A stretch of DNA of 64,000 nt from Pancytospora philotis (lineage: Eukaryota > Microsporidia). A model generated the notes under the pieces. The model was not told where the DNA came from, did no database searches, and worked only from the letters and a program-made list of their open reading frames with translations. The DNA lies in assembly GCA_023647555.1 (NCBI GenBank), contig JALRLY010000258.1, positions 1 through 64,000 of the forward strand, written 5' to 3'. Positions 2,087 to 63,096 of this stretch are shown one piece after another. Both the position numbers and the translations under genes were made by a program. The stretch's first letter is position 1. Each line of letters begins with the position of its first letter.

Positions 2087-4351
2087 ATGAAAATCCTCAA
2101 CGTGGCCGAGAAGCCCTCTGTCGCGAAGTCCATCAGCCGGGTGCTGAGCACGCAGTGCAGGACGAGCCGGGGGCGGCACAAGTACTGCACGAACACGCAC
2201 TTCGAGCTTGTGCGCGGCGGCGAGCGGAGCGAGATGGTCTTCACGAGCGTGCTGGGCCACCTCTACGAGCACGACTTTGAGGGCCCGAGCGGCTGGAGCG
2301 AGACGGATCCCTACGCGCTCTTCGGGATGCCGATCAGGCGCCGGCTCGGGAAGGACATGGAGCAGGTCGCGGAGAACATCAGGGCGCTCGCGCGCGGCTG
2401 TGCGCAGGTGATCATATGGACGGACTGCGACCGCGAGGGCGAGAACATCGCGATGCAGATCAAGAGCCTGCTCGGCGGCGTTGCGGCGCGGCGCGCGCGC
2501 TTCTCGGGCATCTCGCATGCGGAGATCGAGCGTGCGCTGGCAGGCCTGGTGGAGATCAACGAGGCCGAGGCGGCGGCTGTCGATGCGCGGATCGAGCTGG
2601 ACCTGCGCATCGGCGCTGCGTTCACGCGGTTCCAGACGCTGGCGTACGGCAGCGCGGGCGCGGCCGAGCGGAAGGTCCTGAGCTTCGGGCCCTGCCAGAT
2701 TCCCACGCTGAACTTCGTGGTGCAGCGGCATCTGCAGATCGCCGCGTTTGTGCCCGAGGGCTTCTACGGGCTGGAGAACCGGGTGGCTGCCGGCGGCGTG
2801 CTGAACGTGTTTAAGTGGAGCCGCGACCGCCTGTACGACCGGAACTGCGTGCTGCACTTTCACCGGCTGCTGAGCGGCGGCACGGCGGCCATCAGCGACA
2901 AGCGGGTGGAGAGCAAGGAGAAGTGGCGGCCGCTGCCGCTGCGGACGGTGGAGTTCCAGAAGGCGTGCTCGTCATACTACAAGATGCCCGGACACGTGCT
3001 GATGGGCCTGGCCGAGAAGCTGTACAACAACGGCTACATCAGCTACCCCAGGACCGAGACCGACTCGTTCTCCAGGGACTTCGACTTCAAGACGATCGTG
3101 GGGAAGCTCGCCAGGGACAGCGCAGTTGGGGAGTACGCCGCGGCGCTCCGGATGACCGCGCCGCGGCGCGGGAAGAACGACGACCAGGCGCACTCGCCGA
3201 TCTACCCGCTGAAGGACGGGGCCGGCCTCGCGGGTGACGAGCGGAAGGTGTACGAGTTTGTTGCGCGGCGCTTTCTTGCCTGCATCAGCGCGAATGCCAA
3301 GGGTGTCGAGACGGAGTACACGATGGCGGTCGCGTACCGGAACGGCGGTGCCGCGCCGCGCAGCGAGGAGTTCTGGTGCCGCGGGCTGCAGATTATCGAG
3401 CGGAACTACCTGGATGTGTACATATACGACAAATGGGAGGCGACCGTTGTGAGCGACTTTGCTGTCGGCGACGTGCTTGCCAACGGCATTGAGGTGACCG
3501 CCGGGAGCACCACGGCGCCCGAGTATCTGACCGAGAGCGATCTGATCAGCCTGATGGACAAGCACGGGATCGGGACCGACGCCACCATCCACGAGCACAT
3601 CCAGAAGATCCAGACCCGCGACTATGCGCGGAAGGAGCGGCTGCGCTTTGTGCCCACCCAGCTGGGCGTGAGTCTGATCAAGGCGTATGTCGAGCTGGAT
3701 TTGAACGTGAACGAGCCCACGCTGCGGAAGAACCTCGAGGCGAATCTCGGGCTGGTGTGTGCGGGCCGGAAGGACAAGCAGCAGCTCGTGGCGGAGGAGA
3801 TCGCGCTGTACCGGCGGATATACAAGAAGATGGAGGGCGGGGCCGAGCTGCTAAAGCGGATCCTGCGCGAGGCCGGCGACGGGCGCGCGCCGGGCGGCAG
3901 CCGAGGCGGCGGTGTATCTGCGTCTGGGCCAGCGGCCAGGCCGAGCGGCAAAAAGCCAGGCGCGGCGAGCTCTCTTGCTGCGCCCAAGCCTGCGCCGCCG
4001 GAAGGCAAGGAGAACGCGCCTGCAGCGACCGGCGTTCGCTGCAACTGCGGGCAGGAGGCCAAGGCGTTCGAGACCAAGAAGAAGACGAACAGCGGCCGGC
4101 AGTTCTACTGCTGCGCGTATTTCCCCAAGCAGTGCGATTTTTTCCAGTGGGGAGACAGCGCGGCGCCGAGCGAGCCTGTGAAGCGCAAGGACAGCAGGGC
4201 CGACGCGTGCCACGACCTCAAATGCGACTGCGGATACGATCCGGCGAAGAAGACGGCGCACACAGAGGGGAACAACGGCCGCGAGTTCTACTGCTGCAAC
4301 AAGAACTACAAGCGCTGCAAGTTCTTCAAATGGATAGATGAGCTGCAGTAG
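2087..4351 (+). CDS. TOP3: DNA topoisomerase III (type IA)
   Basis: Type IA topoisomerase that relaxes negative supercoils and, with a RecQ helicase, resolves recombination intermediates in the nucleus. The 754-aa product has a Toprim domain starting with AEKPSVAK (residues 7-14) and the metal site WTDCDREGEN (about 111-120). The catalytic tyrosine lies in SYPRTETDS (Tyr320). The C-terminal tail after about residue 590 is Gly/Ala/Pro-rich and ends in two GRF-type zinc fingers (from about 652 and 709), each with paired cysteines and an FYCC core. The start was chosen by the AAATTT/CCC signal and by homology, since MKILNVAEKPS is the expected N-terminus. Confidence 0.96.
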   Translation: MKILNVAEKPSVAKSISRVLSTQCRTSRGRHKYCTNTHFELVRGGERSEMVFTSVLGHLYEHDFEGPSGWSETDPYALFGMPIRRRLGKDMEQVAENIRALARGCAQVIIWTDCDREGENIAMQIKSLLGGVAARRARFSGISHAEIERALAGLVEINEAEAAAVDARIELDLRIGAAFTRFQTLAYGSAGAAERKVLSFGPCQIPTLNFVVQRHLQIAAFVPEGFYGLENRVAAGGVLNVFKWSRDRLYDRNCVLHFHRLLSGGTAAISDKRVESKEKWRPLPLRTVEFQKACSSYYKMPGHVLMGLAEKLYNNGYISYPRTETDSFSRDFDFKTIVGKLARDSAVGEYAAALRMTAPRRGKNDDQAHSPIYPLKDGAGLAGDERKVYEFVARRFLACISANAKGVETEYTMAVAYRNGGAAPRSEEFWCRGLQIIERNYLDVYIYDKWEATVVSDFAVGDVLANGIEVTAGSTTAPEYLTESDLISLMDKHGIGTDATIHEHIQKIQTRDYARKERLRFVPTQLGVSLIKAYVELDLNVNEPTLRKNLEANLGLVCAGRKDKQQLVAEEIALYRRIYKKMEGGAELLKRILREAGDGRAPGGSRGGGVSASGPAARPSGKKPGAASSLAAPKPAPPEGKENAPAATGVRCNCGQEAKAFETKKKTNSGRQFYCCAYFPKQCDFFQWGDSAAPSEPVKRKDSRADACHDLKCDCGYDPAKKTAHTEGNNGREFYCCNKNYKRCKFFKWIDELQ

Positions 4352-4579
4352 GATGCATTTGCTGTGGGTAGGCACTTCTTACAGCCCTGATCACCTCTCT
4401 TGATGGGCTGGAAGTGGAAGCGCTGCCAGTACCTTCTGCTACCGCTGGGGTGGCATTGGTCCTCCCTGTGCACCGTACCCGCTTGGCCGCGCCTGCTGCG
4501 CTCCCTTTTTCTAAAGGAGATGAGGGCAGGATGCTGATTGGCGCAGGCGCGGATTAAAGAAGGAGCACAGGAGAGCCCA

Positions 4580-5002
4580 ATGCCGGAGGGACCGAGCAAA
4601 GAGGCGGTGGTAGCCGTGGAGAAGCCCAAGCCCTCGCATACGAAGGACGGGGAGCCCAGGCCCGCGAGCAGCAGGCAGACCAAGATCCAGCTGCCCAAGT
4701 TCCAGTACAAAACAGTAAAGGCGCTGCACGACCCCATCAAGGATCTGCCGGTCATAGAGGAGTCGACGGTGCAGTTCTACGACTTTGACAGCTACGCAGA
4801 GGACTCGAAGGCCGGGGGGTTGGCGCCGTTCATCATTTATCTGGACACCACGAAGGTGGAGGAGGCCACCGCCAAGGAGAGGACCCAGTACTACAAGGAC
4901 ATGAGAAACATTGCGCTTAAGATCCTGCTGGTGCTTGCATGCATCTTGGTGGGCGGCTACATCATCTACGCATCGTACTTGTTCCTTACCAAAAGTAAAT
5001 AA
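4580..5002 (+). CDS. Predicted tail-anchored membrane protein, unknown
   Basis: A 140-aa product with a charged, proline-rich N-terminal half and one hydrophobic helix at the extreme C-terminus (about residues 112-135) followed by TKSK. This is the layout of a tail-anchored protein facing the cytosol. It could be a divergent SNARE or another ER/vesicle factor, but no SNARE motif is evident to me. The ATG follows GAGAGCCCA, fitting the local start signal; an upstream TTG is ignored. The stop sits in AAATAAAT. Confidence 0.7.
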   Translation: MPEGPSKEAVVAVEKPKPSHTKDGEPRPASSRQTKIQLPKFQYKTVKALHDPIKDLPVIEESTVQFYDFDSYAEDSKAGGLAPFIIYLDTTKVEEATAKERTQYYKDMRNIALKILLVLACILVGGYIIYASYLFLTKSK

Positions 5003-5280
5003 ATCATTGCAAACCGTTGATTGATTGTGTATTGTGTCTTAGGCGTAGCTAGCAAAGCACGGCAGGTGGAAGACTGATGTGCTTGGCAAGGGCACGAGTT
5101 GAAAGCAAGCAAGTATTTGTATATGGTAGTGCATGCAAGCACGATTGAATATGCTGCCTAGTAGTTTTGGCTACATACACACACTGTGAACGCTTCACAC
5201 TATCACCGGCAAAGCCACTATTGAGCACACGAGTTGCATAGAATATAGAAAAGGTAAATTTAATTATGTAAGAGCAATAT

Positions 5281-6444
5281 TTAGGTGGCACCCACATTTA
5301 CAACATCAGGAAATCCAAGATATGATACTACTAACTTTTCTATCATATCATCAATACTAATCTCCTTTATATAATTAGGTGCACTACTGCAAAGCTTACT
5401 CTGTTTCAACTCTTCTAGATGCTGCAAGTACGCGTCTTCGAACAGTCCAGTTATTTCTACGATTCTTGCATCGACGTCTTCAAACTCGTAAATTTTTCTG
5501 AGAAAAAGACCGTAGTTACTGATATACCTCATCAAACTAGTACAAGCATCTTGAAATGCGACATCATCTAAACCCAAATATTCAAATCCAAGTTCAAAAA
5601 AGCGTTCAGGTAGGATCTCTTGTCGGTGCATTCGCACATCAGCTTGTTCTAAGGAATTTCTAAGATGTGTAAAAGCCGCAGTAACGAAAGCAGATAGGTA
5701 TTCTCTGCACTCTGGCCCGGGAAGACCCGCACTCGGGATGGTGACGGCATTTGATTCACTGAAAGATGTATGTAACTCGGAGGACATTCCGGTGGTCCTC
5801 TCAAGCTCTGTAGTTATTAATTTCTGGACTTCTTCGATAATGCGCTTTACATCAGGATCGCTTACGGCTCCTCCTTCAGCCATAATAGCTTGAATCTGTT
5901 CCAACATGGGAAGGTAGTTGGGTGCTTGTCTGAGCATCGCCTCCTGCGCAACGATAACTTTGCTGATAAAATTATCATGAAGCTTGAGCACATTAACAAC
6001 GCGATCATGTGATTCTTTCATATTGTCAGAGGCCAGAAATACCGACTGAAAACTCCTGCCCAGGCTCGCGCAGAATTTCTGTGCCGCATCGCGGTTGATA
6101 GGATTCTCCGCAGAGTCATGGCCTCTATTAATTGCATGTCTGGAGTACTCCTGCAGTACAGACTTTAGCTCCTTAGCACAAGTTTTCCTCCATTTATCGA
6201 TCCGGGGCTCGTCATAGCTATTGCCGTCCTGAATACCTTTCGCCACTTCATCTAGAGCCTGCTCTACTTCCTCTGTAATGCTTTTGCATCCTAACGCGAC
6301 GCGCACCCAGAATGGCACCTGAGGTCTTGGCTGCTGGACAGGATTAACGCAGATCAACGCATCCTCATCTGCAGGCTCCCGGCGGGGGTTCTTACACTCT
6401 ACAGCGCGGGGAATGAGACTGATTATCATCAATAGCCGGCGCAT
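5281..6444 (-). CDS. Secreted lineage-specific protein, tandem family member A
   Basis: A 387-aa product starting with a short signal peptide (MRRLLMIISLIPRAVEC). The rest is mostly helical with no domain I recognise. It is clearly paralogous to the protein at 7408-8598: the two share the N-terminus, an FWVxxALxCK segment, a KLITTEL-type helix and the motif SELHxxFSESNAV over their full length. The start is the ATG at 6444, which aligns with the paralog start and lies downstream of AAATTTTT and GCCC. The open frame reaches 6525 only through a GTG. Role unknown; a secreted or surface protein acting in the host is plausible. Confidence 0.8.
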   Translation of the reverse strand: MRRLLMIISLIPRAVECKNPRREPADEDALICVNPVQQPRPQVPFWVRVALGCKSITEEVEQALDEVAKGIQDGNSYDEPRIDKWRKTCAKELKSVLQEYSRHAINRGHDSAENPINRDAAQKFCASLGRSFQSVFLASDNMKESHDRVVNVLKLHDNFISKVIVAQEAMLRQAPNYLPMLEQIQAIMAEGGAVSDPDVKRIIEEVQKLITTELERTTGMSSELHTSFSESNAVTIPSAGLPGPECREYLSAFVTAAFTHLRNSLEQADVRMHRQEILPERFFELGFEYLGLDDVAFQDACTSLMRYISNYGLFLRKIYEFEDVDARIVEITGLFEDAYLQHLEELKQSKLCSSAPNYIKEISIDDMIEKLVVSYLGFPDVVNVGAT

Positions 6445-6525
6445 GGAATAAGGGCTAACGAGCCAGGCAAAAATTTGCTCAAAATTTTCCAACGAATTGC
6501 ACGTCAGCAGCCAAGTTTTAATCAC

Positions 6526-7114
6526 GAATCGTGACTACACGATAGAAGTTATCCGATTACCAGCAGTAGCATCGGTATTAAGGATCAGTGTATTACTATA
6601 AAGGTAAATTTAATGGAGGCATAAACTATCTACTTTTACAGCTTTCCCAATGGTATATCGATTAAGATGAACCAATATGCGAGGCCGATCGCGCAAACCT
6701 CTTATCTCGTTCAGGCTGTCCGTTTGGTCTCCGCCCGTACAATGCCATCTTAAAGCGAGTTCCTTGAGTGTTCTGCCCGAGTCCGCGTACATTTCAATTT
6801 GACGGGCCCTTCATTTCTCCAGGTAGGCCGTATCAATCTTGACGCCGTGTTTAGCATACTGAGCAAGCGTATCCAGCCCAGTCCGCTCGTCCTAATGTTC
6901 GCTTGCTCAGTCTTTCACATCTAGACTGCATGCCTGATCTGCAAACGACCCTCCGGCAGGCGTTCTAACAGGTCTGATGAACTCATTAGGTATGCGTTCC
7001 ATTTATAACTCTGCATGCTCAAACAAACAGTTTATCTTAAGATTTTCAGAAGCGCACCGCATGACTCTCGAGGCCTTACTGCGCGCGGCATCTTTTCAAA
7101 TATGACTAGCAAAA
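6526..7114. other. Intergenic stretch between tandem paralogs
   Basis: No gene is supported. A 60-codon minus-strand frame (6610-6792, ATG start) ends in TAAATTTACC. Similar AAAGGTAAATTTA or AAAGTAAATTTA strings lie near the 3' ends of both flanking paralogs (about 5251 and 7378). The frame may therefore be the tail of a decayed gene, but its peptide does not match the family. Confidence 0.4.
6858..6911. repeat. 12-bp perfect inverted repeat with 30-bp spacer
   Basis: ACTGAGCAAGCG at 6858-6869 is the exact reverse complement of CGCTTGCTCAGT at 6900-6911. It lies in the geneless stretch between two paralogs. It could form a hairpin or be a remnant of a small mobile element. Confidence 0.6.
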
Positions 7115-7275
7115 TGCGAAGCAAGTGCTTCGCATACGCAAGTGCTTCGCATACGCAAGTGCTTCGCATACGCAAGTGCTTCGCATACGCAAGTGCTTCG
7201 CATACGCAAGTGCTTCGCATACGCAAGTGCTTCGCATAAGCAAGTGCTTCGCATAAGCAAGTGCTCCGCATGTGC
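7115..7275. repeat. Tandem array of a 17-bp unit, nine copies
   Basis: Unit AAGTGCTTCGCATACGC repeats head to tail from 7123 to 7275. Six copies are identical, two end in ATAAGC and the last is degenerate. The left edge (7115-7134) also forms a perfect hairpin, TGCGAAGC and GCTTCGCA around AAGT. Because 17 is not a multiple of three, all frames stay open on both strands with a 17-residue periodic peptide; I see no evidence that any is translated. Confidence 0.95.
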
Positions 7276-7407
7276 AGTTAGCGGTCACAGGGTCTTTTAT
7301 TGTAAGATTCCCACCATCACACAGAGATGGAACGGCCAATAGCTGGACCATAGGCTCTCCCGTCTGCCAGTATAGGAAAAAGTAAATTTATTCGAATAGG
7401 AACGATG

Positions 7408-8598
7408 TTAGAAGTCAATTTCCGTAACTCTGGACTCAAAAATATGAAGGAAGGACTCCAATGTCTGCTCTATTACTTCATTAGTATCCTTAGCATTAAG
7501 CTGCAGTGTACAATCAGTTAAATCGCCGCAGAGCCCGACCAGCTCCAGTTTCTGTAAGTCCTTCAGGCGCGGTACGTACTTCTCTTCGAATCGCCTGGTT
7601 ATCTCTTCGATTCCCTCATCAAAGTCCTCAAACATAACGGCCTTCTCGAGGAAATACTTGTATTGGTAGATGCAGTTTAGCAACACAATATAAACATCGT
7701 CCAATGCGGTCTGGTCAAGGCCTATATAGTCGGGCTCGAGTTTGAAAAAACGGCCAGGCAAGGCTTTACGGCTGCGCATACGCAACGCAACCTCTTTTTG
7801 AGAGTTCCAAACATGCGCCAGGGCCGCGGAAACAAAGGCAGTTAGAGACCCTTCGCCTTCTAGCTTGGGCAGACCCGAACGCGGAAAGTAGACAGCATTC
7901 GACTCGCTGAAAGGTATATGCAGCTCAGAAGCTGACCCAGTGATCTTTTCAAACTCTGTAGTTATTAATTCTTGTATCTCCCCGATAATCTTCGTTACCG
8001 CAGGGTCACTGAAGGGTACATTTTGGAGCATGGCGGCCTTGATTTGATCAAGCATAGGAAGGAATTTGGATGCCTGTCCACCTATCGCCTCCTGCGCAGC
8101 AATAACTTTGCCGGCAAATCTGTCGTAGAGACGGAGTAGAATTACAATGCGTTTATAGGATCTTTTCATGCTGCGAGGGGCTAGAAGCGCTGCCTGCTTG
8201 CTCTTATCAAGGCCTTTGCGGAATTTCCGCGCTGCGTCACTGTATATGCGATTTTCAGCACGGTCAGGGCCTCCGTTAATCACGTGTTCGCAGTACCCCT
8301 GGAGCATGGACTTCAGTTCCCTATGGCAGGCTATTTTCCACTGGTTGTTCCTGGCCTTAACAGACCCACTTCCCTCCAGGACACCCTCCGCCAGATCATC
8401 TCGAAGGCGCTCCAATTCCTCTGCAATGGGCTTGCATTCAAGCGCAGCGTACATCCAGAATGGCGCCCGCGGCATTCCTTGCCGAGCACGATTCACGTTT
8501 ATTTCCTCGCGCTCATCCCCACCTGCAGGTCTACGGCGGAAGTTTTCGCACCGCACGACCTGGGGAATAAAGCCGATGATCGCCAGCAGACGGCGCAT
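7408..8598 (-). CDS. Secreted lineage-specific protein, tandem family member B
   Basis: A 396-aa paralog of the protein at 5281-6444, same strand and same layout: a signal peptide (MRRLLAIIGFIPQVVRC), then an alpha-helical body of unknown function. The motif SELHIPFSESNAV and the segment FWMYAALECK match family member A. The ATG at 8598 follows AAATTTTT and a GCCC string, as in the paralog. Coding GC is visibly higher than in member A, so the copies have diverged in composition as well as sequence. No catalytic motif or transmembrane segment beyond the signal peptide is apparent. Confidence 0.82.
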   Translation of the reverse strand: MRRLLAIIGFIPQVVRCENFRRRPAGGDEREEINVNRARQGMPRAPFWMYAALECKPIAEELERLRDDLAEGVLEGSGSVKARNNQWKIACHRELKSMLQGYCEHVINGGPDRAENRIYSDAARKFRKGLDKSKQAALLAPRSMKRSYKRIVILLRLYDRFAGKVIAAQEAIGGQASKFLPMLDQIKAAMLQNVPFSDPAVTKIIGEIQELITTEFEKITGSASELHIPFSESNAVYFPRSGLPKLEGEGSLTAFVSAALAHVWNSQKEVALRMRSRKALPGRFFKLEPDYIGLDQTALDDVYIVLLNCIYQYKYFLEKAVMFEDFDEGIEEITRRFEEKYVPRLKDLQKLELVGLCGDLTDCTLQLNAKDTNEVIEQTLESFLHIFESRVTEIDF

Positions 8599-21567: not shown

Positions 21568-22584
21568 TTAGTAAGGTATCTCGCCTCCTTTTTCCTTAAT
21601 AACGAGTTTCATACGGCCTGGCATACTATCATATAGATGCTGTATTAAAGTATCAGGAATACTATACCATTCGTGCCGAATGAGAGCCTTCAATTCTTGC
21701 TTGTCTCGGGGCTTTTTACCTGACCTAGCAATTCTATCTTTAAGATAAGCCCAGACATTCTCTATAGGATTGAGGTCGGGGGAGTAACTCGGCCATTGGA
21801 GAACTCTTATACCCGCCCCCTCCATATACTTCCGGGCTAACGCTGACTTATGCTTGGGGTCATTATCCTGTTGCAGAATAATATTTTTAACTTTCAAGTG
21901 ATTTTTTTTGAGTGTCTTGGTAAGCCCGGACTTGAGGACTTCAACGAATAGTTTACCATCCATAGTCGTCTCTATGAATACAAGTTCCCCGACGCCGCGC
22001 GACGTGATGGCGCCCCATACCATCACTGATCCACCACCATGGCTTACCGTTTTCCTAAAATGGAAGTCTCGCGTGGGCGCGCCAGGCTCGCGCCATACGG
22101 TTCTTGGACCGTCGTGCCCAAAGAGATTAAACTTACTTTCGTCGGTAAACACGACGTCACGCCAAGTGTCCTTTGGCCTCGGCAGCGGGTTGCGTGCAAA
22201 TTCAAGTCGGTCAAGCCGGTGATTCGGCAAGAGGCGCGGCTTAAGGGGCCGCACACGACTCTCCAAACCTCCTGAGTGCAACACCCGTCGAATGGTCTCG
22301 TCGGACATTGCGACACCCGTGCGTTCGTAGGTCGTTTCAACGAGGTCGCTCGTCGAGGGCACACGTGGAGTCTTGGCAGCACGGACGATAACCCTGGCTA
22401 TCCTTGGGGTAACAACAGAAGGCCTACCCTGTGACGGGCTACCGCCCTCTCGCGCTATGCCTACCGTTATACGTTGGACTGCCGACTTGGATACGCCCAT
22501 CTCGCGAGCGATTTTACGCTGCGACATCCCACCAGCGTATAACCGTTTGATTTCATTCTTAATGGATTCAGGTATTGATGCCAT
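21568..22584 (-). CDS. Mariner-type transposase (DD34E)
   Basis: Cut-and-paste transposase of the IS630-Tc1-mariner superfamily, 338 aa. The N-terminus carries a helix-turn-helix (GGMSQRKIAREMGVSKSAVQ, about 18-37). A second DNA-binding segment follows, then the RNase H-like catalytic core: Asp148 in FTDESKF, VMVWGAI (187-193), Asp240 in QQDNDPKH and Glu275 in SPDLNPIENVW. Exactly 34 residues separate the last two, so it is DD34E like Tc1. The ATG follows TAGCCC. No stop or frameshift is present, so it may be functional. Probably acquired horizontally, perhaps from a host or host-associated genome (inference). Confidence 0.95.
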   Translation of the reverse strand: MASIPESIKNEIKRLYAGGMSQRKIAREMGVSKSAVQRITVGIAREGGSPSQGRPSVVTPRIARVIVRAAKTPRVPSTSDLVETTYERTGVAMSDETIRRVLHSGGLESRVRPLKPRLLPNHRLDRLEFARNPLPRPKDTWRDVVFTDESKFNLFGHDGPRTVWREPGAPTRDFHFRKTVSHGGGSVMVWGAITSRGVGELVFIETTMDGKLFVEVLKSGLTKTLKKNHLKVKNIILQQDNDPKHKSALARKYMEGAGIRVLQWPSYSPDLNPIENVWAYLKDRIARSGKKPRDKQELKALIRHEWYSIPDTLIQHLYDSMPGRMKLVIKEKGGEIPY

Positions 22585-22938: not shown

Positions 22939-25900
22939 CTAGAGCCGCTGCACTTCCGTCTGAAGGCTGTTCTGCAAGAAGTACTCACACTCTGCTATTT
23001 TTTGACTGCAAATGTACAAATTCGTTCTCAGGCCAGCGCTCAGCCTTATTTGTGCAGCATAGAGCTGCTCCACCTTACTTATGAAGTTATTCAAATCCAT
23101 GAGCTGCAACTTCATTTTCAGCTGCTCTTCATAGCGGCCTCTCAGGAATTCGTAATTATTTTCGCAATGATGCAGCAGGGCACCGGCTGACTCCCTGCAG
23201 ATATCGAGTACAAACACCGGATGCTGCTCGTCCGGCACGCTTTTGAGCATGTCGTAGATCCTAGCATAGTCAGATTCCGAGGACGCGAACAGCGCGTACA
23301 GCCCGAGTAGCAGCTTGAACTGTGACGGCGCGGGACCGTTAGGGAATATACTAGCGATCAGGTCTTTAGACAACGGCGGCATATCATGCGATACAGAGAA
23401 GTAGCGCCTAATACGCTCATCATAAAATACCGCAAACTCGAAATCACTCCCACTGGTGCACACCCAGTAAGCCTCGCTGTAGAACTGTCTCTTGACCACC
23501 ATACAAAACCAAAAGGCTCTTTTTACCCAGTGATCTACTGTAGCACCAACACCATCCGGCATGATGATGGACCGCACGAGCTCGGTGCCCTCAGTGTGCC
23601 TGCAGGTCATAAGCATCTCGACGGCGCAGCTCCCAGGGTGGCCATACACATAAAAGTTCTCCAAAAGAGCAACGATGGGCGATATGCCTGTTTGCTTGGA
23701 CCAATAGTTCCCAGGGCTCCAGGTAGGTCCGAGGGTCGCAAGCTCCTTGAGATAATGTGATGCAATGTTAGGGACCCGGTAGTTTGAATAGCGCCAAATG
23801 TCATTCTGCAAAGAGGTTCTTCGCTCCACGTCAGTAACTTGGCGATATAGCGACGGATGAATGCGGATGTTGGGGAAAAGCACTGCACGCTCGTTAGCGC
23901 AGTTGGAGAGAACCGCACGAAAGAAAGGCTCCCTTGTGGCAAAATCGCTGAGCGGCAAACTGCCCAGAATATTTGCTATGAGAAGTACAAGCGGGTTGCT
24001 GGCGACAGGAGCCTGGCCTGTAGCGCTGAAATGCTCATTCTGCAAACCAGTAGAGGGAACGTCCGCACTGTTCTGCGGAAGAGAGTTATCAGGCCGCTCA
24101 TTCGTCCCTTTGCTGCTTCTTCCTTGTTTGAGCAGCTCCGTGAACGCAGGGAACAGCTGGTCAATTGCTACCAGCAGATCAATATGCGAATGCATCGGTG
24201 TATGGGCCAACCAGTCGGCAAGCGCGGTGTAGAGCGCCGTTGGGTCGCGCGCGGCCTCGATTTCGGCGGTACACGCACTTGGTAGCAAGGCTCTGTCGGC
24301 GATGCTGAGGAACCTCTTCGCACAATCACGGATAAGACCTAATAGGAGAGGGCCGCCATCATCTCTAGCCTCTTTGCCGTGGTCCTCAAAGAACTTACGC
24401 TCCTCTTCGCTGAGAGTGTTTTTGTGGGCTCTGTGGATGAAGCTGACGTGGAAAAGCTGGAAGATAAGCCTAACTTCATTGCAAGGCACTCCATCTACCA
24501 TTGGTGGGAATGATAGCACCAGCGTCCCGCAGATGCAATCTCTTTTCTCTCCGTCGATGCACACACCACGGATTTCAGACTTCACGGGGCTGATCGAAAT
24601 CATACGAATTACATCGCTAAACGACCCAGCAATTCTAGGGAAATATGTTTCGTCGCGTGGAGCAGCCAGGCTGTTCGCCACAGCACCCTCCAGATCTCTT
24701 TTCATCGTCTCCGGGAGCCCTAAGATTTTGGCTAGCACAAACAGGAAGTTACCCATGCACGCTGAGAGCTCTACAGGCACGCCATGCTCACTTGGCTTGC
24801 AGTACCTAATTAGATTGCGGCCCTCCGCATCTCCAGCTGGATGAAGCGTAAGGCCCTGGACGACGCGCGCCCATTCCTGGTGTATCTCTGCCCCGCCGTT
24901 ATCCTCTGGCCCAGTGCAGATTCTAGTAAAGAAATCCACGAACCGCTCTGTCGGGCTGCACCCTTTAGAGCCCAAATGCTCAGTGCTGTAGCTACAAGTC
25001 TCCGGGTCGTACAGCATACAGCACAGGAAGTTATACAGCGCAATCTCTACGCAGTCGCTATAGCTGATTTCTATGCAAATGCTGCCGGTTACTTCGTCGT
25101 AGCAGTGCACGATTTGGTTCATCAGCGGCGTGTTCGAGCTGCTGAACGGAAACTGGCCAAGGCAGAGAATTTTATCGATCCTCTTCAGCACGCCGTATTT
25201 TTTTGAGAAGCTCCCTAACAGCTCGCTGTCAGTCGTGAAGAAGCGGGCATACGCGGCATCCAGCTCGGGGCCAGAGTAGATCTCTGCGAGCAGTGCATCG
25301 ACGCAGTTGAACACCTCGCCGATGAACGCACCATTTTCCGCATACTCGCAGATGTATGCCTGTATGAGGAAGCTCGGTGCGTCGGTGTAGTGCAGACCGA
25401 GCTTCGCCACGTCGGTGGCGCCGTGGCCGACGAAAAAATCGACGACTGCCCGCACCTCTTTGGCGTACTGCGGCCTCTTGCAGTTCACATCCCGTGTTTT
25501 CAGATTCAGCTCGAGTAGGGTGCATTTCCCACAGGTCAGCGCGACGCTGGAGGGATTCTGCTGCTGCCGGCCCTTGCTACCCGCCGACACTTCCTTGTAT
25601 CTGGCCTCGATCCCCTCGCCGCCGGCTAGCAGAAGCAGTGCCGCAAAGAAACGGGCGCGCTCGCTGTCCGTGAGCTGCACGCGCGTGTACTTGTAGAAGG
25701 ATGCATGGTGGTTTGTGCTTACAGTCACCGTCCCATTTGCTATTCTGAACAGGATCTTCAGCGTATCATAGTAGGCGTGCAAGTAATCCATCTCTTCTGA
25801 ACTGGTAAAGTCGCATATCTCGTCGTTCGCCGGATTTCTGCCGTATTCGTATGTCCTGTTAAATTCGTGAATAAGGGCACCGGATGGCCCGGTCTCAAAG

Positions 25901-26139
25901 TCATACAGCGTGTAGTATGTGCGTATCGGTGCGGAATACTTACGCTTCTTCGCCATTGCATCGTTGTTGACCAGAGCATGCCCGCACAGGATGTTAAGCG
26001 GGCCCGCGGGATTGACAAACACCTTGCCACCGCCGGCCCTCTCGCGCTCGCCCTCGACCATACTAATGGCCTCCTGCAATCTGACTCGGGCCCATGCACT
26101 AGAACCCGCTAGCGACAGAACCGTTGGCAAAAATAGCAT
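22939..26139 (-). CDS. Large secreted protein, unknown (1066 aa)
   Basis: A 1066-aa product starting with a signal peptide (MLFLPTVLSLAGSSAWA). The body is a long, largely helical protein without internal membrane helices that I would trust. Cysteines are scattered through it, including a cluster near residues 360-385 (FLCCMLYDPETCSY), and there is a short low-complexity, Ser/Asn-rich linker in the second half. No known domain is recognised. The frame extends 14 codons upstream only from a GTG; the ATG at 26139 opens the signal peptide and has ACTATAAATACG about 25 bp upstream. It is the largest lineage-specific gene after the 1091-aa protein at 55708 and is presumably exported or wall-associated. 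Confidence 0.8.
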   Translation of the reverse strand: MLFLPTVLSLAGSSAWARVRLQEAISMVEGERERAGGGKVFVNPAGPLNILCGHALVNNDAMAKKRKYSAPIRTYYTLYDFETGPSGALIHEFNRTYEYGRNPANDEICDFTSSEEMDYLHAYYDTLKILFRIANGTVTVSTNHHASFYKYTRVQLTDSERARFFAALLLLAGGEGIEARYKEVSAGSKGRQQQNPSSVALTCGKCTLLELNLKTRDVNCKRPQYAKEVRAVVDFFVGHGATDVAKLGLHYTDAPSFLIQAYICEYAENGAFIGEVFNCVDALLAEIYSGPELDAAYARFFTTDSELLGSFSKKYGVLKRIDKILCLGQFPFSSSNTPLMNQIVHCYDEVTGSICIEISYSDCVEIALYNFLCCMLYDPETCSYSTEHLGSKGCSPTERFVDFFTRICTGPEDNGGAEIHQEWARVVQGLTLHPAGDAEGRNLIRYCKPSEHGVPVELSACMGNFLFVLAKILGLPETMKRDLEGAVANSLAAPRDETYFPRIAGSFSDVIRMISISPVKSEIRGVCIDGEKRDCICGTLVLSFPPMVDGVPCNEVRLIFQLFHVSFIHRAHKNTLSEEERKFFEDHGKEARDDGGPLLLGLIRDCAKRFLSIADRALLPSACTAEIEAARDPTALYTALADWLAHTPMHSHIDLLVAIDQLFPAFTELLKQGRSSKGTNERPDNSLPQNSADVPSTGLQNEHFSATGQAPVASNPLVLLIANILGSLPLSDFATREPFFRAVLSNCANERAVLFPNIRIHPSLYRQVTDVERRTSLQNDIWRYSNYRVPNIASHYLKELATLGPTWSPGNYWSKQTGISPIVALLENFYVYGHPGSCAVEMLMTCRHTEGTELVRSIIMPDGVGATVDHWVKRAFWFCMVVKRQFYSEAYWVCTSGSDFEFAVFYDERIRRYFSVSHDMPPLSKDLIASIFPNGPAPSQFKLLLGLYALFASSESDYARIYDMLKSVPDEQHPVFVLDICRESAGALLHHCENNYEFLRGRYEEQLKMKLQLMDLNNFISKVEQLYAAQIRLSAGLRTNLYICSQKIAECEYFLQNSLQTEVQRL

Positions 26140-44050: not shown

Positions 44051-45796
44051 ATGTTTTTGGTCCACTTGATTCAGTTGTACATAGCGGTTAGTGCAACTGC
44101 GTTGAAAAAGTGCAGCACCGCGCATAACAGCAGCGCCACCGAACCGATACAGTCCCTGGACAACCCATACTACATTCTGACCGGCAGAGATGGCTACGTG
44201 AACCTCGCATCGGCGGACGGCAGAGTGCCCCCACGCCCGCAGTGCCCTGATCTGCTGTCAAGCTTCAAGAAGGCAGACAAATACAGCTACAAAGTAGGCG
44301 CGGCAGAGGCTTCAGACAGCAAGCAAAAGCAGTGTGCACAAGCGAACAGCTATGCAAACATAACCAAATCGCTGAACAACTTGTACATGAAAATGAGCCC
44401 CGAGGATGAGCATGTACCTGTTATTGAAAGGAAACTGGACGACGCGTACGTAAAAATGAACTCGGATGGTTATATGACGCCAGTCTCAGAGAGAAAGGCA
44501 GAAGAGCATGTCTACCAGGAAATAGACTTGCCCGGTAGCGAAAATTTCTACGATAGAACATACGAGAATATAAAGCATGGCCACTCTACACTACGCGGGC
44601 GCAGCAGAACGAGACGCAATGCATATACTATGCGCAGCAGGAGTTTGATTGACGATGGCAGCATAGCACGAGAGCCCCCAGCTTATGGAGAAGCTGGGCC
44701 AACCACCCAAGTGGTAGCTGTCCCGCGCTACACCGCCTCGAAGACATTTTCGAGGCGGCCAATCACAGGCATAATCAAGAGCGCTGATATGCCCACGCTG
44801 AGCTACACCAAGCGCGTATACCGGCCTACAGAGTGCGGGATGTCTGCCCTACCACCGGGCGGTCGGGCTTTTTGGAGTAGAAAGGATGGCGTGCGGCCCA
44901 ATACAATGCACACAAGGCGTCCGCAGTGCATCAAACTAACGAGCTCGCTATACTTTTCCGTCGTTGCTACAGCTGTACTCGATGGGTACTACGTAAACTC
45001 ACGCAGCAAGGCCAAAGATCCCCGGCCAGCAAGCGCGTTCAATATCGGCAGCGACAAAAAGTTCCTGAAATGGATGGAGAAGGTGAAGCATAGAGTGAAA
45101 GTTCTGGCCGCAAAGAAAAAAAGCCTCCTCCCTCTATCCCACGACTCGGTCTCTGCAGTTGAAGAGCTGCTCGTGTTTTTTGAGAGAGGAGACTACATCA
45201 AGGAACTCAAGCAGCGCGTGGATAGGTGCTTCAGGAAAAGCGAGCGCCTGGAGATACCGGATGCGAAGTTCTACACGCTTTGTATTTTGCACTGCATCTT
45301 CCTGCTCGGTGCAGAGGACACAGAGCTGGTCACGCTGATTCTGCCATTGTATGCGTTTCTGAAAGCGAAAACCCGGTCGAGCACGGCGCCTGTCAATTTG
45401 TTCTACGATACGGCTATGGCCAGTCTGGTGTTCAATACGCTAATCACCCTCAGAACGCCGCCTGAAGTGAGATGCGATGCGGAACCACTGGAAGTCTATC
45501 TTCATGCAGGCGATATTCGCGCACTGGCGCGCTTGCAGACCAACAGACACAATGTGCCAATAGATGTACTATACATAAGCATTCTCGAGGAGCGCTTAAA
45601 GGCTAGGGTTTCTGAACTTGAGCACCGATCTTCCCAGAGCCAGCGCGCTTTGAAGCGCTATATTGATGCCCAAGAGCAGCGCCACTCTTCCGCAGCGATC
45701 CAGCAAGTATTTTCAATTTATGAGAAAACCCCGAGCACAGACACCAACATTGTAGATCTGACTGTCCATGTATTCTATGAAGAGATCTGGGCGTAA
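44051..45796 (+). CDS. Secreted protein with SH2-ligand-like tyrosine motifs
   Basis: A 581-aa product with a signal peptide (MFLVHLIQLYIAVSATA). Residues 38-195 form a hydrophilic, probably disordered region with tyrosines in contexts matching animal SH2 ligands: YVNL (49), YANI (101) and YENI (171) fit the Grb2-type YxN; YMKM (112) and YVKM (133) fit the PI3K-type YxxM; YYIL (40) and YQEI (155) fit YxxI/L. Around 49, 112 and 133 a repeated module is visible, Y-V/M-x-L/M-x-S-x-D/E followed by Pro. A PPRP string sits at 60-63 and a basic patch RGRSRTRR near 182-189. The C-terminal third is a helical domain. Family unknown; a host-cell effector is my inference. The ATG follows GCTCCCTACGC; the longer frame starts at TTG. 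Confidence 0.75.
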   Translation: MFLVHLIQLYIAVSATALKKCSTAHNSSATEPIQSLDNPYYILTGRDGYVNLASADGRVPPRPQCPDLLSSFKKADKYSYKVGAAEASDSKQKQCAQANSYANITKSLNNLYMKMSPEDEHVPVIERKLDDAYVKMNSDGYMTPVSERKAEEHVYQEIDLPGSENFYDRTYENIKHGHSTLRGRSRTRRNAYTMRSRSLIDDGSIAREPPAYGEAGPTTQVVAVPRYTASKTFSRRPITGIIKSADMPTLSYTKRVYRPTECGMSALPPGGRAFWSRKDGVRPNTMHTRRPQCIKLTSSLYFSVVATAVLDGYYVNSRSKAKDPRPASAFNIGSDKKFLKWMEKVKHRVKVLAAKKKSLLPLSHDSVSAVEELLVFFERGDYIKELKQRVDRCFRKSERLEIPDAKFYTLCILHCIFLLGAEDTELVTLILPLYAFLKAKTRSSTAPVNLFYDTAMASLVFNTLITLRTPPEVRCDAEPLEVYLHAGDIRALARLQTNRHNVPIDVLYISILEERLKARVSELEHRSSQSQRALKRYIDAQEQRHSSAAIQQVFSIYEKTPSTDTNIVDLTVHVFYEEIWA

Positions 45797-47947: not shown

Positions 47948-49297
47948 ATGCGGATTGCCGGTGGTTCTGCAAGTCACTTGACTGCGCTGTTGCTGGGTGC
48001 ATGCGGCGCGATGCCAGCAGACTCCTCTGAATGGGAGGACGATTCCGCTCTCAGGTCACTTTCATATGAAGGCACTTACATCTATCATCGAGTGGCCGAT
48101 GCGGATATGGGTACTCTAGATTCTCTGTATAGACTCTGCTTGGAAACAGGTCAAGAAGAGCTAACGGGATGCGAGCTGAGGAATTTGCCAAATTCTCGAG
48201 ACCCTGTCGATGACAAGCGCTTTCAGCAGCATACACTCATCCAGATGATTCTGTTTAGCACTGACAGCCCAGAAGAGTGTGTAAAAAAGCTGCTGCCGAA
48301 GCTATCGTATGGAGCACTAGAAATCCTGTATGAGAACCTGAGTGGCGCATCCTGGCCCGGCCTCATAAACTTGATGCATTGCCACGAGTATAAGGTCAGT
48401 CGACAAACGCAGGATAAAATAAGAGACAACATGCAGGCGCATCTGAAAGCCGTGCGTGCGCTGCTGTATAAGGAGACCAGTGAAATAGCAGCCACTCCTG
48501 TGCGGGCTTATCTCAAGCTGAATCAGCAGCCGCTAAAGCCGTACGACGTGCTCATGTTCCTACTTCGGAGAGACACCAAGCCCGGAATCAGTATTCTTCA
48601 AGAGTTGTCGGACGTTCTTGAATATGCATTCGATGGCGAGGGACTAGCCGAGCGAATTAAGAATTTTGTCATGCCACTGATGGACATGGTCGTGGTACTG
48701 CCAAATGCAAACACCCAGCATGTCATCCACTGCAAAGAGCTTTTGCTCAGGCGCCTTGTCAGACTTGATCAGCTGGCAATAGTTGAGGAATTTGAGTGGA
48801 GCGGTTTCCAGCAGGCTCCCATGCCGGATGTAGCAGCTATCACGCAAGTAGCGTTGGAAAATAATGCCAATCCGCTTGTTGCCGCCAATATCATGTTGGC
48901 ATGCTGCCCTAAAGATGATATCATCCTGCCAGACGCGACAATCGATGCTCTAAGCGTTTGCTTCAGGCCTAAAGCAGAAAGCCCTGCCGAGCCCAGTTGG
49001 CTTGACACTACCATTGCTGAGTCCAAGAGAAAGCTGATGAACAGGCTTCCCGCGGCACTCCTGTATATCATAGTGCGCGCTTGTAGCACGGCCTGTACTG
49101 ATGATTCCAGGAAAGCGCCCTGCTTGGCCGATTACATCAATATGCTGGAGAAGGCAAATTACACCAGTCTCTTAACATTGGCCTTAAAGAGGAATGCTTT
49201 TGAGCTGATTGATATGCTGGAGAAATACCGTCCGCTGCCTCAAACGGTGAGCGATGAGATCCTCGGGGTAACACTCGGGACTGATTGGTGGAACTGA
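47948..49297 (+). CDS. Secreted protein, dispersed family member 1
   Basis: A 449-aa product with a signal peptide (MRIAGGSASHLTALLLGACGAMPA). The body is helical. It shares scattered but ordered motifs with the protein at 61684-63096: LLPKLSYGALEILYENL against LLPAMSYGVMEHLYEEL, LAERIKNFVMPLMDMV against LDERIENYIIPLMQMI, and a CKELL/CKTLL helix later on. I take them as one unnamed secreted family. The ATG at 47948 follows TATAAATTTTCG and CTACCCCGA; the frame extends five codons to a GTG. No enzymatic motif is seen. Confidence 0.78.
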   Translation: MRIAGGSASHLTALLLGACGAMPADSSEWEDDSALRSLSYEGTYIYHRVADADMGTLDSLYRLCLETGQEELTGCELRNLPNSRDPVDDKRFQQHTLIQMILFSTDSPEECVKKLLPKLSYGALEILYENLSGASWPGLINLMHCHEYKVSRQTQDKIRDNMQAHLKAVRALLYKETSEIAATPVRAYLKLNQQPLKPYDVLMFLLRRDTKPGISILQELSDVLEYAFDGEGLAERIKNFVMPLMDMVVVLPNANTQHVIHCKELLLRRLVRLDQLAIVEEFEWSGFQQAPMPDVAAITQVALENNANPLVAANIMLACCPKDDIILPDATIDALSVCFRPKAESPAEPSWLDTTIAESKRKLMNRLPAALLYIIVRACSTACTDDSRKAPCLADYINMLEKANYTSLLTLALKRNAFELIDMLEKYRPLPQTVSDEILGVTLGTDWWN

Positions 49298-51396: not shown

Positions 51397-53823
51397 CTAG
51401 TCTATGATATCCAGGTTCATCTTCCAGGTCGTGCAGTACTCCGTGAGATTCTTGCGCAGCTGCACGGTGATCTTGTCGAACGTCTTGTAGTCCCGATCGG
51501 TGGCAATGTACTCCTCGATGCCGTACGCCCGGATGAAAATGACATACCCAGCGTCTCTCTTGCACACGATGCTGGCCTCCATCGGCGTCTCGTCGAGGGC
51601 CGTGTAGAGGTAAAGGGCGGTAACCATGCGGGACGCGTATTGCGCATTCCGGTGCCTGAAATTCATAGTGGAACAGGCCCTGCTGGTCACCGAGGCGGAG
51701 AGCCCGTCGAGGGCGCTCTCGTCATGGTTGATGATATAGGCGAGAATCCGGTGGACTACGACGTCCGGGTAGCGCCGGATAGGCGACGTGAAGTGCGTGT
51801 AGATGTCGGTGGCCAGGCCGTAGTGGTAGAAGTCTGACGCCTCGCCGCTCGCGAAGTAGACCGCCTGCTGCATCGACTTGGTGATGATGCGCTTCATAAT
51901 GATGCGGTTCTGCGGGTCCACGCGCGCGAGCGACTCGTTGATCGTCTTAGACGAGGAGCAGTCGATCCCGTCGAGATCGATCGCGGAGGGCAGCGGGTGC
52001 TTCCTCAGCAGCGAGTACTCGGGGTTGTAGCGGTACATGTACTGCGCGACCGAGATGTTAGCGAGCAGCATGAACTCCTCGACGAGGTAGTGCGTGGGGA
52101 TGGAGTCCTTCACGCACACCTTCTTCTCTGCGTTGACGTACACCTCCTGGGCATTCAGCTCGAGCGCGCCCTTGTCGAAGCGGTCGCGCCGCAGCTTATC
52201 GGCGATCTTCATGAGCATGACGATGCTGTCCGCGCATGCAGCGGGCACGGCGTTGGGCAGCCCCTGCAGCACGGCGTACGCCTGCTCATAGGACAGCGAG
52301 GCCCGGGAACGAATCACAGAGCGCATGATTTTGGTCTCCACGATCTGGAAGTTCCGGTCGAGCGTCCAGATGCAGGAGAAGGCGGCCCTGTCCTCGTTCT
52401 GGCGCAGCGAGCAGAGGTCGGCCGAAAGGAACGCCGGGAGCATGTCGATGCGGCGGTCGGGGAAGTACACGGTCGTCGAGCGGTGCCGCGCCTCCCTGTC
52501 TAGGATGGAGTCGGGCTTCACGTAGAGGGAGACATCGGCGATGTGCACGCCGACCTCAATCAGATCGCCGGCCTCGACGCAGTGCAGCGCATCGTCGATG
52601 TCCGTGCAGCCGATCGGATCGATGGAGCAGACATCGAGGTGCCGCAGGTCGGTGCGTCTGCCCGCCTCCATCTCCCGGTAGGCAGCGCCCACGGAGAACT
52701 CGTCGCTGTCGAACCCGAGGCCGCCGGGGGTCCTCTCAGCCGGGTCGGCGCTTGTCTTGCTCTTCTTTGCCGACGGGCACGCCGCGTCCTCCACCGCGCA
52801 GCTCTCTCCAAAGAACGGCTCCTGGCCGATCTCTGCCCGCCGTCTGTTGAGCGTGCTGGTCCAGCTGTCGCCGTAGTAGTCGATGCTGTAGTGCCGGGCG
52901 ATGGCCGCCACCTCGCTCTCGATATCGCCCGTCCGGCCGAGCATCTTGAAGACCACCGCGGCGGGGAGCGGGCTCGTGGCGGGCCAGTCCACGAAGTAGG
53001 CCGATACCTTCAGCCCGACGCACTCTTCGGAGAAGCCGGCGCTGGCTATAAAATCGGGCAGCCTGCGGTCGACCGGCCTGATGTAGCTGCAGGTGTCCTC
53101 CACGCGGTACAGCGTGCCGACGATGGTGCGCATCTTGCGCTTGTAGATGCCCACGATCGCATCGCCCTCGACGTAGACCTCGTCGCCGTGCAGAGCGCGG
53201 TTCAGCTGCGCACCGCTCACGCGGATGCGCGAGTTCGTCGACAGAACTTCGCCCACCGTGCTGTCCACGCTGGACATGATGAGCGACCCGCGCACAAGTG
53301 TGCCGGCGCGGTGCAGATACTCGAGGTTCTCGTGGTACTCAGCGAAGTGGGGCGCGCCGCTCCGCAGCTGCTCCCGGATGGCCACGGAATGCAGAATATC
53401 AGCGGCCTCGGGGAACGGGCGCAGACACTCAGCGAGGTTGTCCGCTCCTACCACTTCGAACGCTCCGGAGGGGTACCTCGCGCGGGCGTAGCTCAGCACG
53501 GCATCCAGGCCCTTATTGGCCGTCTCGGTGCACGCCTGGTCGTCGAAAAACGTGTACTTGCAGCCGGAGCGGTCCAGATTCTTGCGCGTGTCCTCCGGCA
53601 GGCCGTCCAGCACCGATGCGCAGACGATGAAGTGGTAGACATCGGTCAGGAATAGGGCCCTGTAGTCGCGCACGATGTCGCTGTCGGCGATGAGGACGGT
53701 TTTGTCGAAGCTGAAGCTGCTCGGGAGCACGGCAAGCCCGGAGTGCGTGTACTGCTCGCGTACCGACTTGGTGAGCTGCATTTTGCTGGTCAGCCGGTGC
53801 TTCTCGCGGACTTGGAGATACAT
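51397..53823 (-). CDS. DIS3: Exosome ribonuclease DIS3/Rrp44
   Basis: Catalytic 3'-5' exonuclease of the RNA exosome. The 808-aa product has an N-terminal PIN-like region, cold-shock OB domains, the RNB catalytic domain and a C-terminal S1-like end. The RNB metal site is intact: DPIGCTDIDDALH from Asp402, with all four acidic residues. In the PIN domain the first Asp is kept (LIADSD), but the Glu of the yeast LDEV motif reads LDGL and the DRNDRAI motif is not conserved. The CR3 cysteines before it are absent. Endonuclease activity is therefore doubtful. The ATG at 53823 follows AAAATTTTGGCG. About 190 residues shorter than yeast Dis3. Confidence 0.95.
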   Translation of the reverse strand: MYLQVREKHRLTSKMQLTKSVREQYTHSGLAVLPSSFSFDKTVLIADSDIVRDYRALFLTDVYHFIVCASVLDGLPEDTRKNLDRSGCKYTFFDDQACTETANKGLDAVLSYARARYPSGAFEVVGADNLAECLRPFPEAADILHSVAIREQLRSGAPHFAEYHENLEYLHRAGTLVRGSLIMSSVDSTVGEVLSTNSRIRVSGAQLNRALHGDEVYVEGDAIVGIYKRKMRTIVGTLYRVEDTCSYIRPVDRRLPDFIASAGFSEECVGLKVSAYFVDWPATSPLPAAVVFKMLGRTGDIESEVAAIARHYSIDYYGDSWTSTLNRRRAEIGQEPFFGESCAVEDAACPSAKKSKTSADPAERTPGGLGFDSDEFSVGAAYREMEAGRRTDLRHLDVCSIDPIGCTDIDDALHCVEAGDLIEVGVHIADVSLYVKPDSILDREARHRSTTVYFPDRRIDMLPAFLSADLCSLRQNEDRAAFSCIWTLDRNFQIVETKIMRSVIRSRASLSYEQAYAVLQGLPNAVPAACADSIVMLMKIADKLRRDRFDKGALELNAQEVYVNAEKKVCVKDSIPTHYLVEEFMLLANISVAQYMYRYNPEYSLLRKHPLPSAIDLDGIDCSSSKTINESLARVDPQNRIIMKRIITKSMQQAVYFASGEASDFYHYGLATDIYTHFTSPIRRYPDVVVHRILAYIINHDESALDGLSASVTSRACSTMNFRHRNAQYASRMVTALYLYTALDETPMEASIVCKRDAGYVIFIRAYGIEEYIATDRDYKTFDKITVQLRKNLTEYCTTWKMNLDIID

Positions 53824-61683: not shown

Positions 61684-63096
61684 ATGATGAATGTCAAACT
61701 AATCGCGCACGCGGCTTGTATGCTGATTCTGTGTAGATTTGTCTGCGCTACTAAGCGAAAACGCGTTGGAGCAGCGAAAGTATGCGCGGATGCAGATCCG
61801 GAGCCCGCTACGAATGACGAGGAAAGCACATGCAATATATCGCATCGAGTGACTATAGATCTCTTCAACCATCTGCATGAGAAATGCTTGGAGCGGGACG
61901 AAAAACGGACCGATGAACCCAAGCTCGCCGCTGCGGAAAACGGGCTGAAAGTTCGTTCCTTCCGACAGCAAAAGATGCATTTTGCTTCGATGCTTGTGCT
62001 CAGCAGCAAAGACCCCCTAGCGCAATTCGAGGATCTGCTGCCAGCGATGTCGTACGGCGTCATGGAGCATCTCTATGAAGAGCTTACCTCGACCACATAT
62101 ACCGCCAAACTTGTGCGGTTTATGCGCACGCAATACGTACTACCCAAAGCCACAATATGTACTATCCGTGCGAATGCAAGAAAATACAGCGGGAAGTTAG
62201 CGGAGCGCCTGCTCAGGGAGATAAGACCGCCTTTTGACACGAACGCGGCGGACACCCTGAGAAAGAAAGCTGCGGTGAACGGGCCGGTAGACGCTCTTAT
62301 GCTCGTGGACTGGCATGTGCGCCAGGAAGAGAGCTATCGCAAGCAGCTGGCGGAGGGCACGAAAACTGCCGTGAGCGGCCTAATGGAGACTCTTATGGCT
62401 ATGGAGAGCACTATCAACGAGAAAATAGTCACTTATCGTATGCACTTAGCCGGGATCCTGTGCTCCTTATTGACATGCGAGGATTTAATGGCGGGCAGCT
62501 TGGATGAGAGGATCGAGAACTATATCATCCCACTGATGCAGATGATATTTGGGCATTTTAAGGAAAAGAAAGAGAATATTACTATTAAGGATTGCAAAAC
62601 ATTGCTAGTTATATGCGCGAGCAATATTACAGATGATGCGGTTTTCAAGATGTTTAGCTGGCCTATGTTTAGACAGCATCCCACGCCGTGCGCCGCCGAG
62701 TTTGTGCGGCCGGTCCCGGCTATAAAGGAGTCTAATCCCTATTTCATGGTTCATTTTTTCTATCACTGCTTTGGAATCACTGCGCGGCGTAACGCCTTGC
62801 CCCATGATGCGCTGGATCTCCTCATTGGCTACCTCAGAAGAGACGTCGCGCGCCCCGATGGGCCGGCAAGACTTGAGCAGGTTCTTGAGGCCCGTGCGAC
62901 ATTTTCAAAGCTGCACTATGAAACACGCTTCGCGATAATCGAGCTGTATTATGAGAGCATTGCCGGGTCCAAAGAAAGAAATGACTTTCTGGTAGGCTAT
63001 TTCCGTTCACTTTCTTCTCAGGAGCGCACGCCAATACTGGAAGTGGCGCGCTTCAAGAATATATCACTAGAGAAGTACATAAGTGAAATAGTTTGA
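61684..63096 (+). CDS. Secreted protein, dispersed family member 2
   Basis: A 470-aa product with a signal peptide (MMNVKLIAHAACMLILCRFVCA). The mature helical body shares ordered motifs with the 47948-49297 protein: LLPAMSYGVMEHLYEEL, LDERIENYIIPLMQMIF, a DCKTLL helix, and then FKMFSWPMFRQ where the other has VEEFEWSGFQQ. I take the two as one lineage-specific family, about 12 kb apart and now highly diverged. The ATG follows TTGCCCAT with AAATTAAAAACGGG upstream. No catalytic motif is recognised. Confidence 0.78.
   Translation: MMNVKLIAHAACMLILCRFVCATKRKRVGAAKVCADADPEPATNDEESTCNISHRVTIDLFNHLHEKCLERDEKRTDEPKLAAAENGLKVRSFRQQKMHFASMLVLSSKDPLAQFEDLLPAMSYGVMEHLYEELTSTTYTAKLVRFMRTQYVLPKATICTIRANARKYSGKLAERLLREIRPPFDTNAADTLRKKAAVNGPVDALMLVDWHVRQEESYRKQLAEGTKTAVSGLMETLMAMESTINEKIVTYRMHLAGILCSLLTCEDLMAGSLDERIENYIIPLMQMIFGHFKEKKENITIKDCKTLLVICASNITDDAVFKMFSWPMFRQHPTPCAAEFVRPVPAIKESNPYFMVHFFYHCFGITARRNALPHDALDLLIGYLRRDVARPDGPARLEQVLEARATFSKLHYETRFAIIELYYESIAGSKERNDFLVGYFRSLSSQERTPILEVARFKNISLEKYISEIV

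Follow-up and report, generated by a model that had tools for sequence, protein, structure and literature searches.

A probably secreted orphan protein of the microsporidian Pancytospora philotis with a tyrosine-rich arm and an internal 21-residue duplication

Main finding

The gene described here (positions 44051..45796, + strand) lies in a 64,000-nucleotide stretch of contig JALRLY010000258.1 of Pancytospora philotis, referred to below as the window, and we read its product as a lineage-specific, secreted and host-facing microsporidian protein, with a probability of roughly 0.55. Such a protein would enter the ER through an N-terminal signal peptide, leave the parasite in soluble form and expose a flexible N-terminal arm ahead of a C-terminal domain made of helices. 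Part of this arm arose through tandem duplication of a 21-residue module, Y-[MV]-K-M...P-V-x-E-R-K, and the module, and thus the arm, would bind some partner; it is through this arm that the protein most likely acts.

The gene, its genomic setting and its orphan status

The open reading frame proposed by the sequence-only reading is real and its coordinates were borne out: it encodes 581 aa in one open frame, with the first ATG at 44051 and the stop codon at 45794-45796, the frame being open for 601 codons and the start ATG lying about 20 codons 3' of an upstream stop. The codon score of this frame is -0.217, against -0.306 to -0.645 in the two shifted and three antisense frames. GC3 is 0.60, compared with 0.98 in the family-20 glycosyltransferase and 0.88 in the topoisomerase, and the codon score is also below that of such genes. 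Among the neighbours, a Pfam search identified a phosphofructokinase gene 5' of the gene, and the 3' neighbour is an orphan in which a zinc finger matched below threshold. The genome (3.68 Mb in 83 contigs) is microsporidian, since it contains a polar tube protein 2 (PTP2) match (E 3.4e-23), situated on another contig, and two matches to TLC nucleotide transporters; a microsporidian SSU rRNA model found no match in it.

As a background for comparison we used 181 mechanically defined ORFs of 100 aa or more, chosen greedily without overlap and including the one under study, from 264 kb composed of the window and 20 stretches of 10 kb (L005-L024). These stretches are not random, as they come from contigs with kinase matches and many lie over the matches themselves, and some spurious ORFs are to be expected in the set.

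Among about 5.8 billion proteins, searched with the whole sequence, with residues 330-575 and with residues 25-225, no other protein than the query's own was retrieved, the candidates scored for the whole protein being the best 8000 by word sharing. No Pfam family matched at E <= 1 and no PDB sequence at E <= 10, while the only NCBIfam match was disregarded because its score is far under the cut-off of the model. In its own genome no paralog besides the protein itself was found (whole protein at E <= 1, residues 29-215 at E <= 10), and phmmer found no relatives among the 180 other ORFs of the background (best E 0.27-1.2, depending on the part used as query). Within the collections searched it is a single-copy, clade-specific orphan without known domain.

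Several other groups of genes were observed in the sampled sequence. Two secreted-looking orphans of the window, 47948-49297 (+) and 61684-63096 (+), form a distant pair with 22.5% identity over 426 aa; kinship of residues 335-581 of our protein with this pair was considered and rejected (hhalign probability 0.15-0.2%). Two adjoining secreted-looking orphans at 5281-6444 (-) and 7408-8598 (-) are 46% identical and have no Pfam match. The large ORFs at 22939-26139 (-) of the window and L010:3464-6841 (+) belong to one family (25% identity over 813 aa), the former having a fairly hydrophobic start and no Pfam match at E <= 0.001, and a Tc1/mariner-like transposase with DDE_3 and HTH_Tnp_Tc3_2 domains is located at 21568-22584 (-). 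Local clusters of three related genes are found at L023:4484-5146, 5915-6520 and 6817-7431, where the starts are signal-peptide-like, and at L017:2480-3802, 4312-5733 and 6327-7733.

N-terminus and architecture

Residues 1-17 (44051..44101, +) probably constitute a signal peptide, with an A-x-A cleavage site (A15-T-A17) after A17. The 12-residue hydrophobicity at the N-terminus is 2.12, which ranks 17th among 140 ORFs of 200 aa or more; this alone is not decisive, because 23 of the 140 have an equally simple N-terminal hydrophobic stretch of 2.0 or more. The sequence-only reading had stated the signal peptide outright, and of that statement the hydrophobic N-terminus and the A-x-A site stand, but the grade is lowered to probable because a stricter crude rule did not call the protein. 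This and the breaks in the hydrophobic core at His5 and Gln8 weigh against the secreted, host-facing reading in general; together with the absence of a basic n-region and the 23 ORFs just mentioned, they are what favours an ordinary intracellular orphan whose N-terminus is hydrophobic by chance. We consider such a non-secreted protein quite improbable, in view of the hydrophobicity rank and the rightly placed A-x-A site, and also of GC3, which at 0.60 is close to the median of signal-peptide-like ORFs and not to that of the others. That comparison, made by the crude rule on ORFs of 200 aa or more in the window and L005-L024, gave median GC3 values of 0.63 (n=23) and 0.80 (n=117, our protein being counted here), respectively (Mann-Whitney P 2.5e-4), and third codon positions may differ between secreted orphans and housekeeping genes.

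No 19-residue segment of transmembrane strength is present anywhere in the protein. Spore-wall, polar-tube and surface components occur among secreted microsporidian proteins, and both the probable signal peptide and the orphan status would be compatible with a structural protein of this type, secreted yet retained by the parasite, with tyrosines used for packing or cross-linking. We regard this as distinctly unlikely: with nine Cys in 581 residues the protein is not Cys-rich, it has no Pfam match, and the PTP2 match of this genome is a different locus.

The tyrosine-rich arm, residues 38-195 (44162..44635, +), contains 13 tyrosines and has a slightly negative FoldIndex of -0.087, followed by -0.023 in residues 196-300 and positive values in the stretches tested from residue 300 on. 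The C-terminal region, residues 335-581 (45053..45793, +), has a positive FoldIndex and is predicted, with very low confidence, to be mostly helical. In a single-sequence AlphaFold2 model the part before residue 298 is mainly coil, apart from a helix at 90-112 and short strands, and the part after it mainly helical, a picture that can be taken as a hint only because mean pLDDT is 34.9. Against the flexibility proposed for the arm stand its FoldIndex, which is only slightly below zero, and the helix 90-112 that the low-confidence model places inside it.

The 21-residue repeat

Residues 104-131 (44360..44443, +), with YMKM(SP) at 112, and residues 125-152 (44423..44506, +), with YVKM at 133 and YMTP at 141, are two overlapping copies of a module with a period of 21 residues, each carrying PVxERK. 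Their alignment at offset 21 scores 52, while the maximum in 500 shuffles was 51, and at the DNA level 72% identity is retained over 32 nt at a spacing of 63. The two YxxM sites therefore represent one event, since both stem from the same duplication. Ten residues (I, L, Y, K, M, P, V, E, R and K) are identical between the copies, among them the tyrosine and its +3 Met; PVxERK, 11-16 residues downstream, is equally conserved, and each of the five PV-ERK codons carries a silent difference. By NG86-type counts pS is 0.79 and pN 0.42, an estimate from a small sample, as the repeat consists of two overlapping copies and 28 codons. This excess of synonymous over nonsynonymous divergence indicates that the module is probably old and held at the protein level, and because the protein level was kept while synonymous sites diverged, the module probably binds something.

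A third copy at tyrosine 49 had also been proposed. The module is real for 112 and 133 but less clear at 49: there the best ungapped score is 24 against a shuffle median of 25, while in the register of 63 (3 x 21) the summed fit of residues 49-66 to both copies gives P 0.001 in shuffles of the segment, a value that is not fully independent because the register came from the sequence-only reading and from the offset scan. YVNL at 49 (44195..44206, +) is thus a possible diverged third copy.

Tyrosine motifs and their density

Tyrosines 40, 41, 49, 101, 112, 133, 155 and 171 are present at the positions and in the contexts given earlier, where they had been taken as repeated SH2-ligand motifs. 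The corresponding rival reading is that of a phosphotyrosine-mimic scaffold, i.e. an exported arm phosphorylated by host tyrosine kinases and recruiting host SH2 and PTB adaptors, which we find rather unlikely. Its putative sites would be the Grb2-type tyrosines 49 and 171, the PI3K-type tyrosine 133, perhaps also 112, and the PTB-type LDNPYY, and it would conceivably work like the tail of an insulin receptor substrate or like polyoma middle T. The class definitions for PTB, PPxY, ITAM, Src-type and LIR motifs are the ones we take to be standard. By them LDNPYY, residues 36-41 (44156..44173, +), has the PTB ligand form [hydrophobic]xNPxY, and YMxMSP occurs at 112; each is found in none of the 180 other ORFs, which favours the scaffold, as does the retention of both the tyrosine and its +3 Met in the two repeat copies, while the equally conserved PVxERK is left unexplained by it. 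YMTP at 141 is a further tyrosine motif, and PPAY, residues 209-212 (44675..44686, +), is of the WW-domain type PPxY, found in five of the 180 other ORFs. An ITAM-like pair, YANI-x7-YMKM, had been noticed; its spacing holds, although a strict ITAM does not admit Met at +3. The strict expression is matched instead by ExxYQEI-x12-YENI, residues 152-174 (44504..44572, +), with tyrosines 155 and 171, as it is in four of the 180 other ORFs. EPIYA does not occur in residues 38-195 and EPxY does not occur in the whole protein, whose only relatives of it are NPxY at 38 and PPxY at 209.

Motif density in residues 38-195 exceeds that of shuffles of equal composition, in accordance with what had been proposed. 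YxN[LIVMF] occurs three times against 0.15 expected (P 0.00025) and YxN or YxxM five times against 1.2 (P 0.0025), while YxxM by itself, with two occurrences against 0.41, reaches only P 0.052; residues 216-581 show no motif excess over shuffles. In the best 158-residue window the protein has five YxN[hydrophobic] and YxxM motifs, the highest number in the 181 ORFs and a point for the scaffold, eight ORFs having two and the others none or one. Per shuffled ORF the probability of at least five is 5.5e-5 and of at least four 9.0e-4, which scaled to about 2,500 ORFs, a number extrapolated from the 181-ORF sample, corresponds to 0.14 and 2.3 expected per genome. The density is therefore not significant genome-wide, because with the duplication counted once about two such ORFs per genome are expected by chance, which speaks against the scaffold. 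The weak resemblance to docking motifs could be explained by chance together with a small internal duplication.

With a broader set of motif classes, chosen partly post hoc, 8 of the 13 tyrosines of the region fit, while 237 of 2161 do so in the background (P 1.6e-5, or 9e-5 with the duplicate merged), again in favour of the scaffold. Counted over all 30 tyrosines of the protein, 10 fit (P 0.00095), and the protein then comes second to L022:6060-6704, the one other ORF whose class count is comparable, with seven fitting tyrosines in a run of 13 and 7 among its total of 16 (P 0.00089). The latter was dropped as a second case, being a low-complexity Pro/Tyr/Asn protein, but that such an ORF comes first counts against the scaffold. 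The acidic context points both ways: Asp or Glu stands at -1 to -4 of five out of seven hand-picked tyrosines (49, 101, 112, 133, 141, 155 and 171), with 881 of 2161 in the background, whereas acidic residues at -1 or -2 of the tyrosines of the region number 4 against 3.3 in shuffles (P 0.42).

The same series of Yxx[hydrophobic] motifs could in principle engage host AP-2 mu or Atg8 in sorting or autophagy and not SH2 domains, a reading that we hold to be highly improbable. Yxx[LIVMF] is indeed enriched (seven occurrences, where shuffling predicts 2.4; P 0.003), but these patterns are very permissive: seven YxN or Yxx[hydrophobic] motifs in a 158-residue window are found in three of the 181 ORFs, the one studied here included, six are reached by 11, and LIR-like motifs (3 against 1.2, P 0.11) are not significantly enriched.

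Published SH2 specificities and phosphorylation

The part of PMC3514216 used here, its Table 3, gives array-derived specificities for 42 SH2 domains. For the unweighted count 38 rows were taken, SHB, SHD, SHE and SHF being omitted because they have the same expression as PTPN11_N; for the weighted count 34, with GRAP, RASA1_N, SH2B and YES also omitted as each is identical to a kept row. Read against these specificities, the earlier assignment of the YxN sites to the Grb2 consensus is upheld for YVNL at 49 and YENI at 171 but not for YANI at 101 (44351..44362, +), which has the YxN context and lies outside the published form Y[V/E]N. The assignment of the YxxM sites to PI3K is weakened, since YMKM and YVKM are both outside the published C-SH2 form and YMKM is outside the N-SH2 form too, to the detriment of the scaffold.

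The evidence for an enrichment in SH2 ligands is mixed, and by these specificities the region hardly rises over background. The region has 3.15 matches per tyrosine and the background 1.97 (38 rows; P 0.044, or 0.076 with the duplicate merged), and at least eight other ORFs score above it, including the secreted-looking orphan 47948-49297. When matches are weighted for rarity (34 rows), P is 0.12 and the region is outscored by at least six ORFs, which include the RNB exonuclease (51397-53823) and the topoisomerase (1961-4351). Such little or no excess is a further point against the scaffold. Only the Grb2 form stands out among the SH2 classes: three of the 30 tyrosines (49, 171 and 314) have it, compared with 14 of 2161 in the background, with P 0.001, uncorrected for the many ORFs and domains compared. 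This favours the scaffold, although Tyr 314 is outside the arm and a single other ORF (1033 aa) equals the count of three.

The genome contains at least 23 kinase matches to the PF07714 profile, and the catalytic loop is D-x-K-x-x-N, the Ser/Thr form, in 22 of these and degenerate in one. Tyrosine kinases have a loop of the form HRDLAARN or HRDLRAAN, and none of the 23 has a loop of this type, although some may be dual-specificity kinases. Phosphorylation of the arm would thus mainly need the host, as the scaffold presupposes. A classical tyrosine phosphatase of 272 aa without obvious signal peptide is encoded at L036:1288-2106 (+). The profile of the SH2 family PF00017 found no match in the genome, but its control was likewise silent; an SH2_2 match, presumably of the Spt6 type, is present. 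That no ortholog was found in the collections searched also weighs against the scaffold. More specifically, that a microsporidian arm would imitate the tail of an animal docking protein, gathering Grb2-, PI3K- and PTB-type adaptors and turning the host's signalling for growth and nutrients in the parasite's favour, seems to us unlikely.

Comparison with known systems

In searches of the open full-text literature, no title or abstract opening described a microsporidian effector acting through SH2 domains or phosphotyrosine. If the scaffold were true, CagA and polyoma middle T would have a eukaryotic counterpart in this protein, built up through duplication of a 21-residue YxKM module, and it would offer a testable route by which the parasite steers host PI3K and Ras signalling. 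If it is wrong, the protein adds to the list of lineage-specific secreted proteins, and it warns that the density of YxN and YxxM motifs makes a weak filter.

The bacterial EPIYA effectors CagA, Tarp, Tir, Bep, AnkA and LspA are, as the consulted part of PMC3593179 presents them, mutually unrelated proteins with tyrosine motifs in a duplicating and diverging region. Our protein shares with them, so far as that part goes, a tyrosine-motif region grown by segment duplication and divergence, but has no EPIYA motif, and their secretion is bacterial. Polyomavirus middle T, a viral protein, recruits Src kinases after binding PP2A, according to the consulted part of PMC7819848. If the P. philotis protein were phosphorylated, the two would have in common NPxY and PI3K-type sites in one protein without kinase domain, though anchoring of the PP2A/Src type as outlined there is not seen here. 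Insulin receptor substrates, in the portion of PMC10526421 consulted, combine YxxM sites for PI3K and YxN sites for Grb2 with PH and PTB domains; YxxM and YxN sites are shared with their tails, while PH and PTB domains are absent here, where no Pfam family matches at E <= 1.

The host-exposed proteins of Nematocida were identified through proximity labelling of infected worms, many of them being members of large families, and the molecular function of predicted host-exposed microsporidian proteins is mostly not known, as stated in the consulted part of PMC5423893. Our protein differs from that description in being single-copy, and the absence of large-family paralogs, unlike in many host-exposed proteins, argues against host exposure. 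What it has in common with the Nematocida proteins, as that part characterizes them, is a probable signal peptide, restriction to its clade and a sequence without known domain.
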